Shown here: positions 39,714 to 43,549 of the stretch, one piece after another
How the letters are laid out: every line of letters begins with the position of its first letter
How positions within the stretch are numbered: the stretch's first letter is position 1
Assembly: GCA_028683385.1 (NCBI GenBank)
Contig: JAQUIJ010000012.1
Location: forward strand, 62,001-126,000
DNA: 64,000 bases
DNA from: Prolixibacteraceae bacterium
Lineage (GTDB): Bacteria; Bacteroidota; Bacteroidia; Bacteroidales; Prolixibacteraceae
Direction of reading: 5' to 3'
Notes under the pieces: generated by a model
The model's input: only the letters and a program-made list of their open reading frames with translations
Database searches by the model: none
What the model was told of the DNA's origin: nothing
Program-made: the position numbers and the translations under genes

Positions 39714-42167
39714 ATGAGACAATATCTGGTTTTAATTGCATTCCTGATGTTTGTGGAATTGAGCTTTGGACAGGAATTATGGAGGAAAGAAGCCATTAAA
39801 ATGCCACCATCGGTTTGTTATGCTTCTCCGGAGATTCACAAGTCATTTGTAAAACCACCGGAAAAACTAAAAGCAGGTTCTACAAAAAAGGCTACAATTA
39901 TTGTCGATTTTGTTGGTTTTCCGGAGGATGCAAAGGTCGCTTTTCAATACGCAGTAACTATTTGGCAAGATTTAATTTATTCTCCTATCCCAATACATAT
40001 TCAGGCGACCTGGGAGAGCCTTGCCTCGGATATTTTGGGAAGTTGTTCGCCGTCTGATTACATTCCAAATTTCAATTCAACTCAAATTTGGAATTGCTAT
40101 TACCCCATTGCTTTGGTTGAAAAAATGCTTGGTCAGGAAGTTAATTCTCCGACTGGTTACGAGATAGAAGCCTCATTCAATAAAGATTTTACAAACTGGT
40201 ATTTTGGCGTTGATGGCAATACGCCTACTGACAAATATGATTTTGTATCAACGGTTTTGCACGAATTGACTCATGGGTTAGGTTTTCACGGTTTCTTTTA
40301 TTCGGATGGCAGAGGTCGCGGTGGATATGGTACTGATGGCATGGCGGCTGCTTTTGACCAATATGTAATCAATCAAAGTTCAGAAAAACTGGTAAATACA
40401 AAGATTTTTACAAATCCATCAGTTAAGTTGTATCAAACCTTTACTTCCGGATGGCTTAGTTTTAACACCAAGCTGGACTTAGACTCTTTGCCCAGGCTTT
40501 ACTCACCAACAACTTGGGATAGCGGTTCGAGCATTTATCATTTGAATGATGATACCTATCCGGCTGGTGATCCCAACTCATTAATGACACATGCAATGGG
40601 GAAGGGTGAGGCCAATCATAATCCGGGACCAAATACTTTAGCGATTATGTATGATATGGGATGGAAGTCGATTTCAATTAAACATACACCGATTAAAGAT
40701 ATTGAATATGTTACTGCTCCAATCAATTTTGAAGCGAAAATTGAGAGTGACTATGCTCTGGATTCGACCAAATTATACCTGATTTACTCATCAACGAAAT
40801 TTGTGAAAAAGGATTCTGTTCGCTTGATGCCAACAAATACTCCCGCCATTTTTAATGCAAAAATAAAACCTACCCAAACAGGCGAAATTCAGTATTATTT
40901 TTCGGCCAGAGACGTAAAAAAGAGAACATTTGTATTTCCATCCAATTCACCAACAAGATACCTGGCTTTTACAATTGGAATTGATAAAACCGCGCCAGTC
41001 ATAACGCATGAACCAATCAAATTTCTTTTGTCATCAAACCCAACTGCAAAAATTACTGCGATTGCAACTGATAATATTGGAATTGAGTCAGTCAAAGTGG
41101 CTTACTTTGTTAATGGTGGATTAATTCAGGAATTGGCATTGGTCAATGATTCAGCAGATCGGTACATCGGAAACCTGGCTTTTCCAAAAGGATCAGTCAA
41201 AGGCGGAGATATTGTCAGTTACCGGATTGTTGCCACCGATATTTCTTCGCAAAGCAACATCGGGTATTTGCCTTTAACTGGTTATAACACCTTTAAAATT
41301 GAAGAAATTAAAGAGCCCGTGGAGCGGTATGTTTCAAATTTTGATGCCTTGAATCCCGATTTTATTGGTTCCGATTTTACTATTTCAAGCGTAACCGGAT
41401 TCGACAGTCCGGCGTTGAATTCAGCTCATCCATACCTAAGTCCGGATGTAGATAATTCTGAGTTTAATTTTAGTACAATTCTGAAATACCCAATCATTCT
41501 GAAAAAGGGAAAGATGACTTTTGATGAAATCGCATTGGTAGAACCAGGCGAAGCCGGTTCTAAGTTTAATGACGAAAATTTCTGGGATTACGTCATTGTT
41601 GAAGGTTCTAAGGACGGTGGGATCACCTGGAAACCTTTTGCTGACGGGTATGATAGCAATTTACAGCCATCGTGGTTGAAATTATGGAATAGTTCAATGT
41701 CGGGAAATAACAGTACAGCGATACCGACCAAAGATTTGCTGGTAAAACACGAAATCGATATGCTGGCCAATGGAAATTTTAGCGTAGGCGATGTTGTTTT
41801 GGTTAGGTTCCGGTTATTTTCCGATCCGTATTCGCATGGCTGGGGCTGGATCGTTGATAATCTGGCTATACAGGATTGGGAAACGGCTGTCAATCCTATG
41901 CTTTTATCTTCAGGAGAAGTAATTTGTTTTCCAAATCCGGCAACCAATCAGTTAAATGTCCAGATTAGTGCAAAAAATACGATTCAGAATTTGATTTTGA
42001 AGGCATATAACTCATCAGGAAAGCAGGTTTATATTCAGGATTTCCCCGTCAGATCTAATTTGTTTGAAACTGCAATTGATGTGAGTAGTTTTATACCTGG
42101 CTTGTATTTATTTACTTTCGAACCTGAAAAAGGAGAGGTAATTACCCGGAAAATATTAGTTCAATAA
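39714..42167 (+). CDS. T9SS-exported metalloprotease-like protein
   Basis: The 817-residue protein has a signal peptide (MRQYLVLIAFLMFVELSFG). A zinc-protease-like domain (about 55-320) contains VLHELTHGLGFHGFFYSDG with His183, Glu184 and His187. A later NSLMTHAMGKGEANHNPGP (in part) resembles the Met-turn of related secreted proteases. The expected third metzincin ligand (position 193) is Gly, with His192 one residue earlier. Middle domains are beta-sandwich-like. The C-terminus (about 740-817) is a type A sorting domain (CFPNPATNQLNVQISAKN, ending ITRKILVQ), so T9SS should export and anchor it. The substrate is unknown. Confidence 0.8.
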   Translation: MRQYLVLIAFLMFVELSFGQELWRKEAIKMPPSVCYASPEIHKSFVKPPEKLKAGSTKKATIIVDFVGFPEDAKVAFQYAVTIWQDLIYSPIPIHIQATWESLASDILGSCSPSDYIPNFNSTQIWNCYYPIALVEKMLGQEVNSPTGYEIEASFNKDFTNWYFGVDGNTPTDKYDFVSTVLHELTHGLGFHGFFYSDGRGRGGYGTDGMAAAFDQYVINQSSEKLVNTKIFTNPSVKLYQTFTSGWLSFNTKLDLDSLPRLYSPTTWDSGSSIYHLNDDTYPAGDPNSLMTHAMGKGEANHNPGPNTLAIMYDMGWKSISIKHTPIKDIEYVTAPINFEAKIESDYALDSTKLYLIYSSTKFVKKDSVRLMPTNTPAIFNAKIKPTQTGEIQYYFSARDVKKRTFVFPSNSPTRYLAFTIGIDKTAPVITHEPIKFLLSSNPTAKITAIATDNIGIESVKVAYFVNGGLIQELALVNDSADRYIGNLAFPKGSVKGGDIVSYRIVATDISSQSNIGYLPLTGYNTFKIEEIKEPVERYVSNFDALNPDFIGSDFTISSVTGFDSPALNSAHPYLSPDVDNSEFNFSTILKYPIILKKGKMTFDEIALVEPGEAGSKFNDENFWDYVIVEGSKDGGITWKPFADGYDSNLQPSWLKLWNSSMSGNNSTAIPTKDLLVKHEIDMLANGNFSVGDVVLVRFRLFSDPYSHGWGWIVDNLAIQDWETAVNPMLLSSGEVICFPNPATNQLNVQISAKNTIQNLILKAYNSSGKQVYIQDFPVRSNLFETAIDVSSFIPGLYLFTFEPEKGEVITRKILVQ

Positions 42168-42178
42168 CGGTGAAATGG

Positions 42179-42317
42179 AGTCCACTCCGAAAGGTCAAAA
42201 ACCCCTAAATCCCCTGAAGGGGACTTTGAAGGTTCATTGGTTTTCAACGAGTTCCCCTTTAGGGGTCAGGGGTGAGGAAGTTGAAAATCAATGAACTCAG
42301 AACTTTCGGAGTAGACT
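42179..42317. repeat. 139-base inverted-repeat element (MITE-like)
   Basis: Terminal arms AGTCCACTCCGAAAG (42179-42193) and CTTTCGGAGTAGACT (42303-42317) match inverted with one difference. Further inward GTTCATTGGTTTTCAAC faces GTTGAAAATCAATGAAC. The core has CCCCTAAATCCCCTGAAGGGG facing CCCCTTTAGGGGTCAGGGG. The whole can fold into one long hairpin. It contains no gene and resembles non-coding intergenic repeats of this phylum. Confidence 0.7.
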
Positions 42318-42433
42318 TATAAATTGGATATCGCAACTTTAAATATTTGTTAAGCTTCAGAACGTAAAAATCAGTTTATTAATGGTTTATTGAAATTAAT
42401 TACGGATATGCAGTTCTTTTTCTTTCCTGAAAT

Positions 42434-42462
42434 TTTGATTTGAAATAAAAACTCTATATTTG
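42434..42462 (+). promoter_or_regulatory. Promoter of the aromatic leader/tyrA operon
   Basis: TTTG at 42434-42437 and TATATTTG at 42455-42462 fit the Bacteroidota -33 and TAnnTTTG -7 elements with a spacing of 17 bases. Transcription would begin near 42469, about a dozen bases before the leader-peptide ATG. Confidence 0.65.
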
Positions 42463-42481
42463 CTCACATATTGAAAGCAAA

Positions 42482-42556
42482 ATGAAACGTACAAGTAACA
42501 ACAGTTTTTTTTATTGGTTTTATTACTTCTGTTCTCAAATCGGGATCGGCTGGTAA
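42482..42556 (+). CDS. Aromatic-rich leader peptide of tyrA operon
   Basis: This short frame codes for 24 residues. It begins MKRTSNNS, continues with eight aromatic residues in a row, FFYWFYYF (codons 9-16, 42506-42529), then CSQIGIGW, and stops at 42554-42556. Four Phe, three Tyr and one Trp codons in tandem directly before tyrosine/phenylalanine pathway genes are the signature of a ribosome-mediated attenuator, as in pheL of enteric bacteria. The AAAGCAAA before the ATG is a weak ribosome-binding site, normal for this phylum. The peptide itself is expected to have no role beyond stalling ribosomes when charged Phe-, Tyr- or Trp-tRNA is scarce. Confidence 0.8.
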   Translation: MKRTSNNSFFYWFYYFCSQIGIGW

Positions 42557-42620
42557 TGTCTTGTTGTTACGAAAAGATATTTTACAAAAGGGTCCCGTGT
42601 TAAACGGGGCCCTTTTTTTA
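42495..42620 (+). promoter_or_regulatory. Transcription attenuator upstream of tyrA
   Basis: Three alternative pairings are visible. Protector: GTAACAACA (42495-42503, just before the aromatic codons) pairs perfectly with TGTTGTTAC (42562-42570). Antiterminator: CGGGATC (42541-42547) pairs with GGTCCCG (42591-42597). Terminator: GGGTCCCGT (42590-42598) pairs with ACGGGGCCC (42604-42612), then seven T. A ribosome stalled on the aromatic codons would mask the first arm and leave CGGGATC free, favouring read-through. One that reaches the stop codon would cover CGGGATC and let the terminator form. Confidence 0.75.
42590..42619 (+). terminator. Attenuator terminator hairpin
   Basis: A nine-base GC-rich stem (one G-U pair) with a five-base loop (GTTAA) is followed by TTTTTTT at 42613-42619. 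It ends 36 bases before the tyrA start, so it would block the operon when formed. Confidence 0.9.
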
Positions 42621-42655
42621 TTTTCAATGGTTATGCTGAAACAAAACAAAAGAAT

Positions 42656-43549
42656 ATGAAACTTACAGTTATTGGTTTGGGATTGATTGGAGGCTCGATG
42701 GCAATCGATCTTCGGAAAGCCAGATTTACGCAAGAAATTACCGGCGTGGATGCCAATCCTGAAAATGCTCATGAAGCGTTGCGTTTGGGAATAATTGACC
42801 GTATTGATTCGCTTGAAGGTGCTGTAGTGAATGCCGATATGGTAATTATTGCCATTCCGGTTGATAAAGTTTTGAATACTTTGACTACGGTCCTTGATTT
42901 GATTTCGGACCAGACTACTGTAATTGATGTGGGTTCGACTAAAAAGCTGATTGCCCAGGCTGTCGAAAATCATCCGAAGCGTAGAAATTATGTGGCTGCA
43001 CATCCAATGTCGGGTACCGAAAATTCAGGACCAACCGCTGCTTTGGAAGGTTTGTTCGAAGGTAAAATCAACATCATTTGCGATCAGGAAAAATGTGGTC
43101 CGCAACATTTGGCCTTTGCCGAAAAGGTATTTCAGGTGCTGGGAATGGACATTGCCTACATGACTTCCGATGAGCAGGATCACAGCACAGCTTTCATTTC
43201 GCATCTTCCCCATGCCGCTGCTTTTGCCCTGGCCAACGCGGTACTCGATAAAGAAGACCGGGAAATCATATTCGATTTGGCTAGTGGAGGTTTCAACTCA
43301 ACGGTTCGTTTGGCCAAGAGTTCTCCTGAAATGTGGGGTCCAATTTTTCAACAAAATAAGCAGTACATTGTTGAATCGCTCGACGTTTACATTAAACACC
43401 TGAAAGCTTTCCGGAAAAGCATTGAATCGGATCCGGCAGAAATGATGGCTATGATGAAAAATGCCAACCGGATTCGGGGAATTTTAGCCGGTGATGGTGA
43501 TTCGCTCGTTAAAAATGAAAAGACAATAGTTAAACTTTATACCAAATAA
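42656..43549 (+). CDS. tyrA: Prephenate dehydrogenase
   Basis: The 297-residue protein has the NAD-binding start MKLTVIGLGLIGGSMAIDLR, VIIAIPVDKV, VIDVGSTKKLI and the substrate-binding block AAHPMSGTENSGPTAAL (about residues 118-134). STAFISHLPHAAAFALAN in the helical C-terminal domain holds the conserved His. It oxidatively decarboxylates prephenate to 4-hydroxyphenylpyruvate, the tyrosine branch. No ACT or chorismate mutase domain is fused. The stop is 2 bases before the DAHP synthase start, and both lie behind the aromatic leader. Confidence 0.94.
   Translation: MKLTVIGLGLIGGSMAIDLRKARFTQEITGVDANPENAHEALRLGIIDRIDSLEGAVVNADMVIIAIPVDKVLNTLTTVLDLISDQTTVIDVGSTKKLIAQAVENHPKRRNYVAAHPMSGTENSGPTAALEGLFEGKINIICDQEKCGPQHLAFAEKVFQVLGMDIAYMTSDEQDHSTAFISHLPHAAAFALANAVLDKEDREIIFDLASGGFNSTVRLAKSSPEMWGPIFQQNKQYIVESLDVYIKHLKAFRKSIESDPAEMMAMMKNANRIRGILAGDGDSLVKNEKTIVKLYTK

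Follow-up and report, generated by a model that had tools for sequence, protein, structure and literature searches.

The tyrA gene lies in a 64,000-nucleotide stretch of Prolixibacteraceae DNA (the window), which covers 62001-126000 of contig C41 in a genome of 5.9 Mb. It encodes prephenate dehydrogenase and is followed by a gene for a DAHP synthase-chorismate mutase fusion; Pfam domains agree with both names. A first-pass annotation had described an attenuator upstream of tyrA consisting of a promoter, a short frame with eight consecutive aromatic codons, a protector pairing, an antiterminator pairing and a terminator. All of these features were found base for base where that annotation had placed them (Table 1). 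The two promoter elements correspond to the -33/-7 consensus of Bacteroidota promoters. The protector pairing is perfect over its nine bases (42495-42503 with 42562-42570) and is extended by one G-U pair at 42504/42561. The antiterminator has seven pairs, one of which is G-U. The terminator has a 13 bp stem and a run of seven T (42613-42619), and it ends 36 bases before the tyrA ATG. Segment 42591-42597 of terminator strand 3 is shared with the antiterminator pairing, in which it is bound by strand 2. Further upstream, at 42200-42275, is an inverted-repeat element with CCCCTGAAGGGG and CCCCTTTAGGGG, present in a single copy in the window when searched as an exact pattern.

Table 1. Features of the tyrA leader and the genes that follow it, in window coordinates
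Feature	Start	End	Strand	Details
Bacteroidota-type promoter	42434	42462	+	-33 TTTG at 42434-42437; -7 TATATTTG at 42455-42462; spacer 17
Leader peptide frame MKRTSNNSFFYWFYYFCSQIGIGW	42482	42556	+	ATG at 42482; TAA at 42554-42556; 24 codons
Protector stem, 5' arm (strand 1)	42495	42504	+	
Regulatory codons Phe Phe Tyr Trp Phe Tyr Tyr Phe (FFYWFYYF)	42506	42529	+	
Inner hairpin within the protector	42521	42558	+	predicted from one sequence; would sequester the antiterminator arm
Antiterminator arm (strand 2)	42541	42547	+	in tail of leader frame; pairs with 42591-42597
Protector stem, 3' arm	42561	42570	+	
Intrinsic terminator	42586	42619	+	strand 3 42586-42598; loop 42599-42603; strand 4 42604-42616
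tyrA, prephenate dehydrogenase	42656	43549	+	Pfam PDH_N, PDH_C
DAHP synthase-chorismate mutase fusion	43552	44643	+	Pfam DAHP_synth_1 (DAHP synthetase I), CM_2 (chorismate mutase II); 2 bases 3' of tyrA

Comparison of the leader with random sequence

The region 42475-42625 has a folding energy of -43.4 kcal/mol compared with a mean of -27.0 kcal/mol for shuffled sequences (z -4.7), and 0/200 shuffles were as low. The leader run is the sole run of at least seven aromatic codons in the six frames of the window. Sixty windows simulated with a first-order Markov model had a mean of 0.05 such runs and no run of eight. A chance frame was rejected on the absence of a run of eight from these simulations and on the conservation of the frame in relatives.

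Conservation of the leader upstream of tyrA

The first-pass annotation had proposed a comparison with related genomes. A TyrA protein search of 101 related genomes gave a match in 76, and 70 upstream regions were read (30 loci from the search and 40 fetched), leaving out the fragment G008 and five weak matches. A leader was defined as a frame in which some stretch of eight codons includes five or more aromatic ones. By this definition 59/70 regions possess an aromatic leader frame, and in each of the 59 a hairpin and T run begin 23-43 bases after the leader stop. The scan gave only a weak hairpin in L017 because an extra C breaks the stem.

TyrA was matched in 59 of the 61 genomes of the family, whose named members are Prolixibacteraceae, and 58 of these loci were read. 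The leader precedes tyrA in 57/58 of these loci; in the 58th (L004) a contig end cuts the leader and the remaining part matches. Outside the family it directly precedes tyrA in 2/12 loci. A search of named genomes yielded at least 80 loci, with 41 at 60% TyrA identity or more among the matches listed. The leader is present in 40 of these 41, including Gaoshiqia, Sunxiuqinia, Mangrovibacterium, Draconibacterium, Mariniphaga, Maribellus and Puteibacter (Prolixibacteraceae), and the remaining locus, L174, starts within tyrA. The named relatives offer no independent support because they are largely the same genomes as the first set.

The -7 promoter motif is also conserved. Of the 59 leaders, 53 have TAnnTTTG no more than 75 bases upstream of their ATG, compared with 4.8% of shuffled regions; in one of the 53 (L044) it lies at -10, too near the ATG for a promoter. 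A TTG 15-24 bases upstream of the -7 motif was found in just 25/59 leaders.

Several relatives carry at least 100 bases of extra DNA between terminator and tyrA with an undamaged leader; that of L004 contains C/G-rich palindromes. The leader of L047, with 5/8 aromatic codons, has drifted to MKPFFYRSSYYYVPYSGAA (genome G057, upstream of tyrA), in which the aromatic run is broken and the terminator and antiterminator arms are kept.

Covariation of the three stems

Permutation was used to compare the pairing of each leader's own arms with that of arms swapped between leaders. Over 59 leaders the antiterminator averaged -11.9 kcal/mol with its own terminator arm and -10.3 kcal/mol with a permuted one (0/10000 permutations), and over 56 leaders the protector averaged -11.6 compared with -8.0 kcal/mol (0/10000), both in permutations that ignore relatedness. 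L047, L063 and L070 had been dropped from the protector permutation beforehand. The 36 leaders outside the genus also gave 0/10000 for the protector. Antiterminator arms that change together include CGGGATC/GGTCCCG, CGGAATC/GGTTCCG, GGAGATC/GGTCTCC and CTCAGGGGTC/GCCTCTGAG. The own antiterminator was weaker than the swapped mean in 16/59 leaders, mostly slightly and clearly so in L017, L032, L048, L057 and L059; in L048 and L059 the antiterminator arm lies past the stop, outside the stretch scored. The protector was no better than swapped in 2/56 (L012 and L057).

A structure alignment was made from 38 leaders chosen from the 59. Since RNAalifold, run unaided on this alignment, returned the terminator alone, permutation and named structures were used to test the other two stems. 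The terminator is paired in 91.8% of cells, with changes on both sides in 10/12 pairs. The antiterminator is paired in 95.9% of cells, 16 of them changed on both sides, and in 16-65% if slid by 1-3 columns. Two of its five measures are unremarkable, being reached in 75 and 36 of 500 shuffles. The protector is paired in 56.9% of cells and shows register shifts among genera. Since terminator and antiterminator cells stay paired while their letters change, strand 3 remains paired with both strands 2 and 4.

The leader frame, the aromatic identity of its codons and the three alternative stems are evident in the aligned sequences. Judged at the level of sequence, a terminator 5' arm that covaries with both of its partners is the signature of classical ribosome-mediated attenuation. 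The comparison thus bears out the proposed conservation of the leader and covariation of its arms. A same-strand gene ends upstream at 42167, and the terminator might simply serve that transcript or act constitutively, with an accidental aromatic frame. Such an ordinary terminator is contradicted by the comparative data, which show conservation and covariation of frame, -7 motif, protector and antiterminator, and a run of eight aromatic codons would hardly arise by chance; we consider it scarcely credible.

Amino acids probably sensed by the leader

The eight-codon cores of the 59 leaders contain 205 Tyr, 190 Phe and 50 Trp codons among 472. All eight positions are aromatic in 43/59, and in these full cores Phe and Tyr were both seen at each position. 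The codon counts and the interchange of Phe and Tyr therefore indicate that aromatic decoding is selected rather than a fixed peptide.

We considered whether the nascent peptide itself might arrest the ribosome, in the manner of TnaC and SecM, in place of slow decoding of aromatic codons. Peptide residues such as NN-FYYWFYYF-GS appear conserved, as arrest would have it. However, the conserved flanks coincide with RNA arms, the exchange of Phe and Tyr extends to each position, and the uninterrupted aromatic run ranges from 3 to 9 codons across leaders. The peptide tail varies with the RNA arm, and earlier stops remove it in L048 and L059. Since these two leaders stop before the arm and keep the RNA arm GGGATCG, selection acts on the RNA and not on the peptide tail. 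Nascent-peptide arrest was rejected as very improbable on the Phe/Tyr interchange, the variable run and the tail that follows the RNA arm.

The first-pass annotation had proposed that the mixed run would let the leader sense three amino acids. Phe and Tyr codons are present in 59/59 leaders. Trp codons, present in 50/59, appear to be an optional input. A quick tree was made from the TyrA proteins of the window and 40 named relatives. Trp is present in 27 of their leaders and absent from 14, which takes at least four gains or losses on this tree, of which well-supported branches force only one. Because Trp is dispensable, the leader is probably in the first place a Phe/Tyr sensor to which Trp input is optional.

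The same attenuator might go further and respond to Phe and Tyr only, its lone Trp codon being tolerated with little effect. The 9 cores without Trp, the 14 leaders without it and their changes on the tree all favor such a sensor, as do the Draconibacterium leaders (YFYFYFYY) and the Trp leaders that trpE has of its own in the window's genome. Among culturable relatives, Draconibacterium orientale (L161, complete genome) carries the Trp-free YFYFYFYY run, and Mangrovibacterium marinum (L153) and Sunxiuqinia elliptica (L148) have Trp. Against it, Trp is retained in 50/59 leaders and is the fourth codon in 35/43 full cores, and in the folding model described below a stall at the Trp codon (codon 12) would antiterminate equally well. 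We regard a sensor of Phe and Tyr only as a real possibility, at somewhat less than even odds.

Model for attenuation

From the sequences compared, the tyrA leader is most probably a classical ribosome-mediated transcription attenuator (probability roughly 0.93). It shares with leaders of the trp/phe/his type a frame with a run of regulatory codons, an intrinsic terminator, an antiterminator that uses the terminator 5' arm, a covarying protector pairing and a cognate biosynthetic operon downstream. The geometry proposed in the first-pass annotation is supported by the conserved aromatic leader and the covarying arms.

We infer that the leader is translated and that ribosomes stall on it, as well as which way and how strongly the switch responds. 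Transcription would start near 42468, and a ribosome would then translate the 24-codon leader. When charged Phe-, Tyr- or Trp-tRNA is scarce, the ribosome would stall on the regulatory codons and open the protector hairpin, leaving the strand 2 arm free to pair with its partner in strand 3 as the latter emerges. This pairing would block the terminator and allow RNA polymerase to enter tyrA and the DAHP synthase-chorismate mutase gene. When the amino acids are ample, a ribosome at the stop codon would mask strand 2, and the terminator would form.

One step of the earlier proposal was that the stalled ribosome hides the protector arm. Judging from ribosome footprint sizes, full cover is expected only at about the first three aromatic codons and would be lost beyond them. 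A stall further on would probably break the inner hairpin and free the antiterminator arm in that way.

Stalling was modeled by folding the RNA downstream of the ribosome codon by codon, with the front edge assumed to lie 12 bases beyond the first base in the A site. With the A site at codons 9-16 the predicted probability of the antiterminator is at least 0.98 (RNA 3' ends 42598-42606). It falls to 0.85 at codon 17 and to 0.04-0.05 at codon 18, and is 0 for every later codon up to the stop; thus the aromatic run ends where stalling would cease to work. Stalls at codons 1-8 gave 0.86-0.99 in the same model, so specificity must rest on the slowness of aromatic codons. Once the leader is complete, the terminator is always favored (modeled probability 0.96-0.97), and antitermination must therefore be kinetic. 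Kinetic switching is accepted for ribosome-mediated attenuators. In ribosome-free RNA ending at 42598 the antiterminator fold (-25.7) is more stable than the protector fold (-19.9), so that termination without translation would depend on folding order.

Other leaders in the genome

In the genus of the window pheA is located elsewhere, and an aromatic leader of at least 5/8 codons was found before it in none of 16 same-genus loci (of 30 scanned, own genome included). In one genome of the family outside the genus (G034, L119), a leader MNSMNAAYRFWFFFFTD precedes pheA in addition to the tyrA leader.

In the window's own genome trpE has two serial Trp leaders upstream, MIQNTNTIWLPWWGLLSKK and MMITMKNIWWWHRNFSQYRGRK, and a hairpin with a T run comes after each (L136, C23 446293-449733, minus strand, outside the window). 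Both are present in 16/21 same-genus loci, with one in three loci and none in two short loci; outside the genus both were seen in L241 and L251 among nine loci. A leader MNKAIKHYGHHHGTLSEGRQ with a terminator-like hairpin precedes hisG (L137, C23 164935-168399, minus strand, also outside the window). It thus seems that several amino acids are under leader attenuation in this genome.

Related leaders in Bacteroidia

A covariance model, R1, was built from the 38 leaders. In the window's own genome R1 gave one strong match (E 7.6e-27) and four weak ones of 20-30 bits (E at least 0.048). One weak match is the antisense strand of the tyrA leader itself. The scan found no aromatic leader at the other three, two of which precede genes named by eye as cysteine synthase-like and lumazine synthase-like.

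In the order, 138/393 genomes had an R1 match with an E value no higher than 0.01, a set that includes many weak, provisional matches. Of the best 25 matches outside the family (L081-L105), 24 contain an aromatic-rich leader; L092 has none. The genes downstream of these 25, named by eye from the protein start with Pfam confirming 6/6 submitted, are prephenate dehydratase-like in 20 and aminotransferase-like in 3; L102 and L092 have none within reach. Two aromatic leader frames occur in series before pheA or an aminotransferase gene in 5/25 (L084, L097, L098, L099 and L104); L084 and L104 each have two leaders, one within the R1 match.

At the level of the phylum, 9/296 genomes, own included, had a match at E up to 1e-4. 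Nine matches lie outside the own genome, and six of these are aromatic leaders before prephenate dehydratase-like genes in other Bacteroidia families. Pfam also confirmed the gene names at L192, L219 and L224. L218, L222 and L225 were rejected as aromatic leaders; no such leader is present there and they look like terminators alone.

In Marinifilum, Labilibaculum and their kin, serial aromatic leaders precede aminotransferase-tyrA-DAHP synthase operons in 5/8 loci read: L192 (at 1003-1071 and 1162-1245), L183, L191, L194 and L195. In L197 and L198 serial leaders were seen by model match only.

From these matches, the window attenuator looks like a family-specific form of a Bacteroidia aromatic attenuator, which in turn looks to sit before whichever gene opens the operon. 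A broader reading is offered tentatively, and we think it rather doubtful as a whole. The leader might be an OR gate with three inputs, the pathway entry being opened whenever any one of Phe, Tyr and Trp is short. It would derive from an ancient Bacteroidia-wide attenuator family that moves among operon heads (pheA, aminotransferase, tyrA), freely trades Phe, Tyr and Trp codons and has been doubled serially in several lineages (Marinifilaceae and others). Because serial leaders would need two antitermination events, doubling might give a steeper, AND-like response.

Discussion

Regulation by a T-box, a riboswitch or a binding protein, with no leader translation, is suggested by nothing beyond the anatomy of terminator and antiterminator. 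It is opposed by the conserved feature, which is a translatable aromatic frame, and by the absence of any Rfam family in the window at gathering score. Between 42300 and 42800 there were 18 matches at E up to 10, all far below their cut-offs. No T-box was found at gathering score in the window or among these 18. We consider regulation of this kind extremely improbable and retain ribosome-mediated attenuation. Phe_leader (RF01859) scored 19.8 bits on the + strand and 28.8 bits on the - strand against a gathering score of 55, and its best score in six related loci was 33.9 bits. Bacteroid-trp (RF01692), which we take to be a Trp leader, was found neither in the window at gathering score nor in 42300-42800 at E up to 10.

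The enterobacterial pheA (RF01859) and trp (RF00513) leaders have a run of cognate codons, a protector, an antiterminator and a terminator upstream of an aromatic operon. The window leader is like them in all of these, whereas its run mixes Phe, Tyr and Trp and it precedes tyrA and the DAHP synthase-chorismate mutase gene. In Corynebacterium glutamicum a Phe-Tyr-Phe leader lies upstream of the DAHP synthase gene aroF and, like the window leader, mixes Phe and Tyr (PMC4046766). It differs in that it belongs to another phylum, and the available text of that paper names three aromatic residues and does not mention tyrA.

Leader-peptide attenuation as such is not new to Bacteroidota, as Bacteroid-trp, clues from Flavobacterium psychrophilum and an entry for Bacteroides thetaiotaomicron attest. 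For B. thetaiotaomicron, Song et al. (2005) give a putative attenuator, taken from Merino's database, upstream of pheA > hisHb > aroA-aroQ > tyrA (PMC1173090, Table 7). The operon is homologous to that of the window and the attenuator is of the same class, but the operon opens with pheA where that of the window opens with tyrA, and the entry as available specifies no attenuator type, leader peptide or codons (PMC1173090). Bacteroid-trp is listed as a cis-regulatory RNA of Bacteroidetes (PMC2864571, Table 1), like the window leader, but its model has no match in the window region. In F. psychrophilum, clues to leader-peptide attenuation were reported before amino-acid operons (PMC9723704). Phylum and amino-acid operons are thus shared with the window leader, but the available text names no aromatic leader, and the words 'aromatic' and 'tryptophan' are absent from the main text of PMC9723704. 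Short frames reminiscent of leader peptides were described in B. thetaiotaomicron (PMC7366714), and leader genes in Bacteroidetes among others in PMC4833913, whose available text does not cover leaders of the window type. A paper of 2010 held, in the part available, that until its own case in Firmicutes leader-peptide systems were known from Proteobacteria and Actinobacteria only (PMC2965389). No title or abstract among those searched, which excluded most subscription journals, names a leader with Phe, Tyr and Trp codons upstream of tyrA-DAHP synthase in Bacteroidota. The window leader is very probably a well-conserved further example of a long-known switch, of which few have been described in these bacteria.

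Since the window holds no Rfam family at gathering score, such leaders are probably unannotated in these genomes. The leader provides a clean case of leader-peptide attenuation in Bacteroidota with three-way covariation. Bacteroidota ribosomes are reported not to recognize Shine-Dalgarno sequences (PMC9976891, as far as its available text goes), and leader translation must therefore be timed independently of them. Very probably the switch turns on the enzymes of the tyrosine branch and of the pathway entry when Phe, Tyr and Trp run short, and an attenuator of this kind would explain how both are tied to the three amino acids together.
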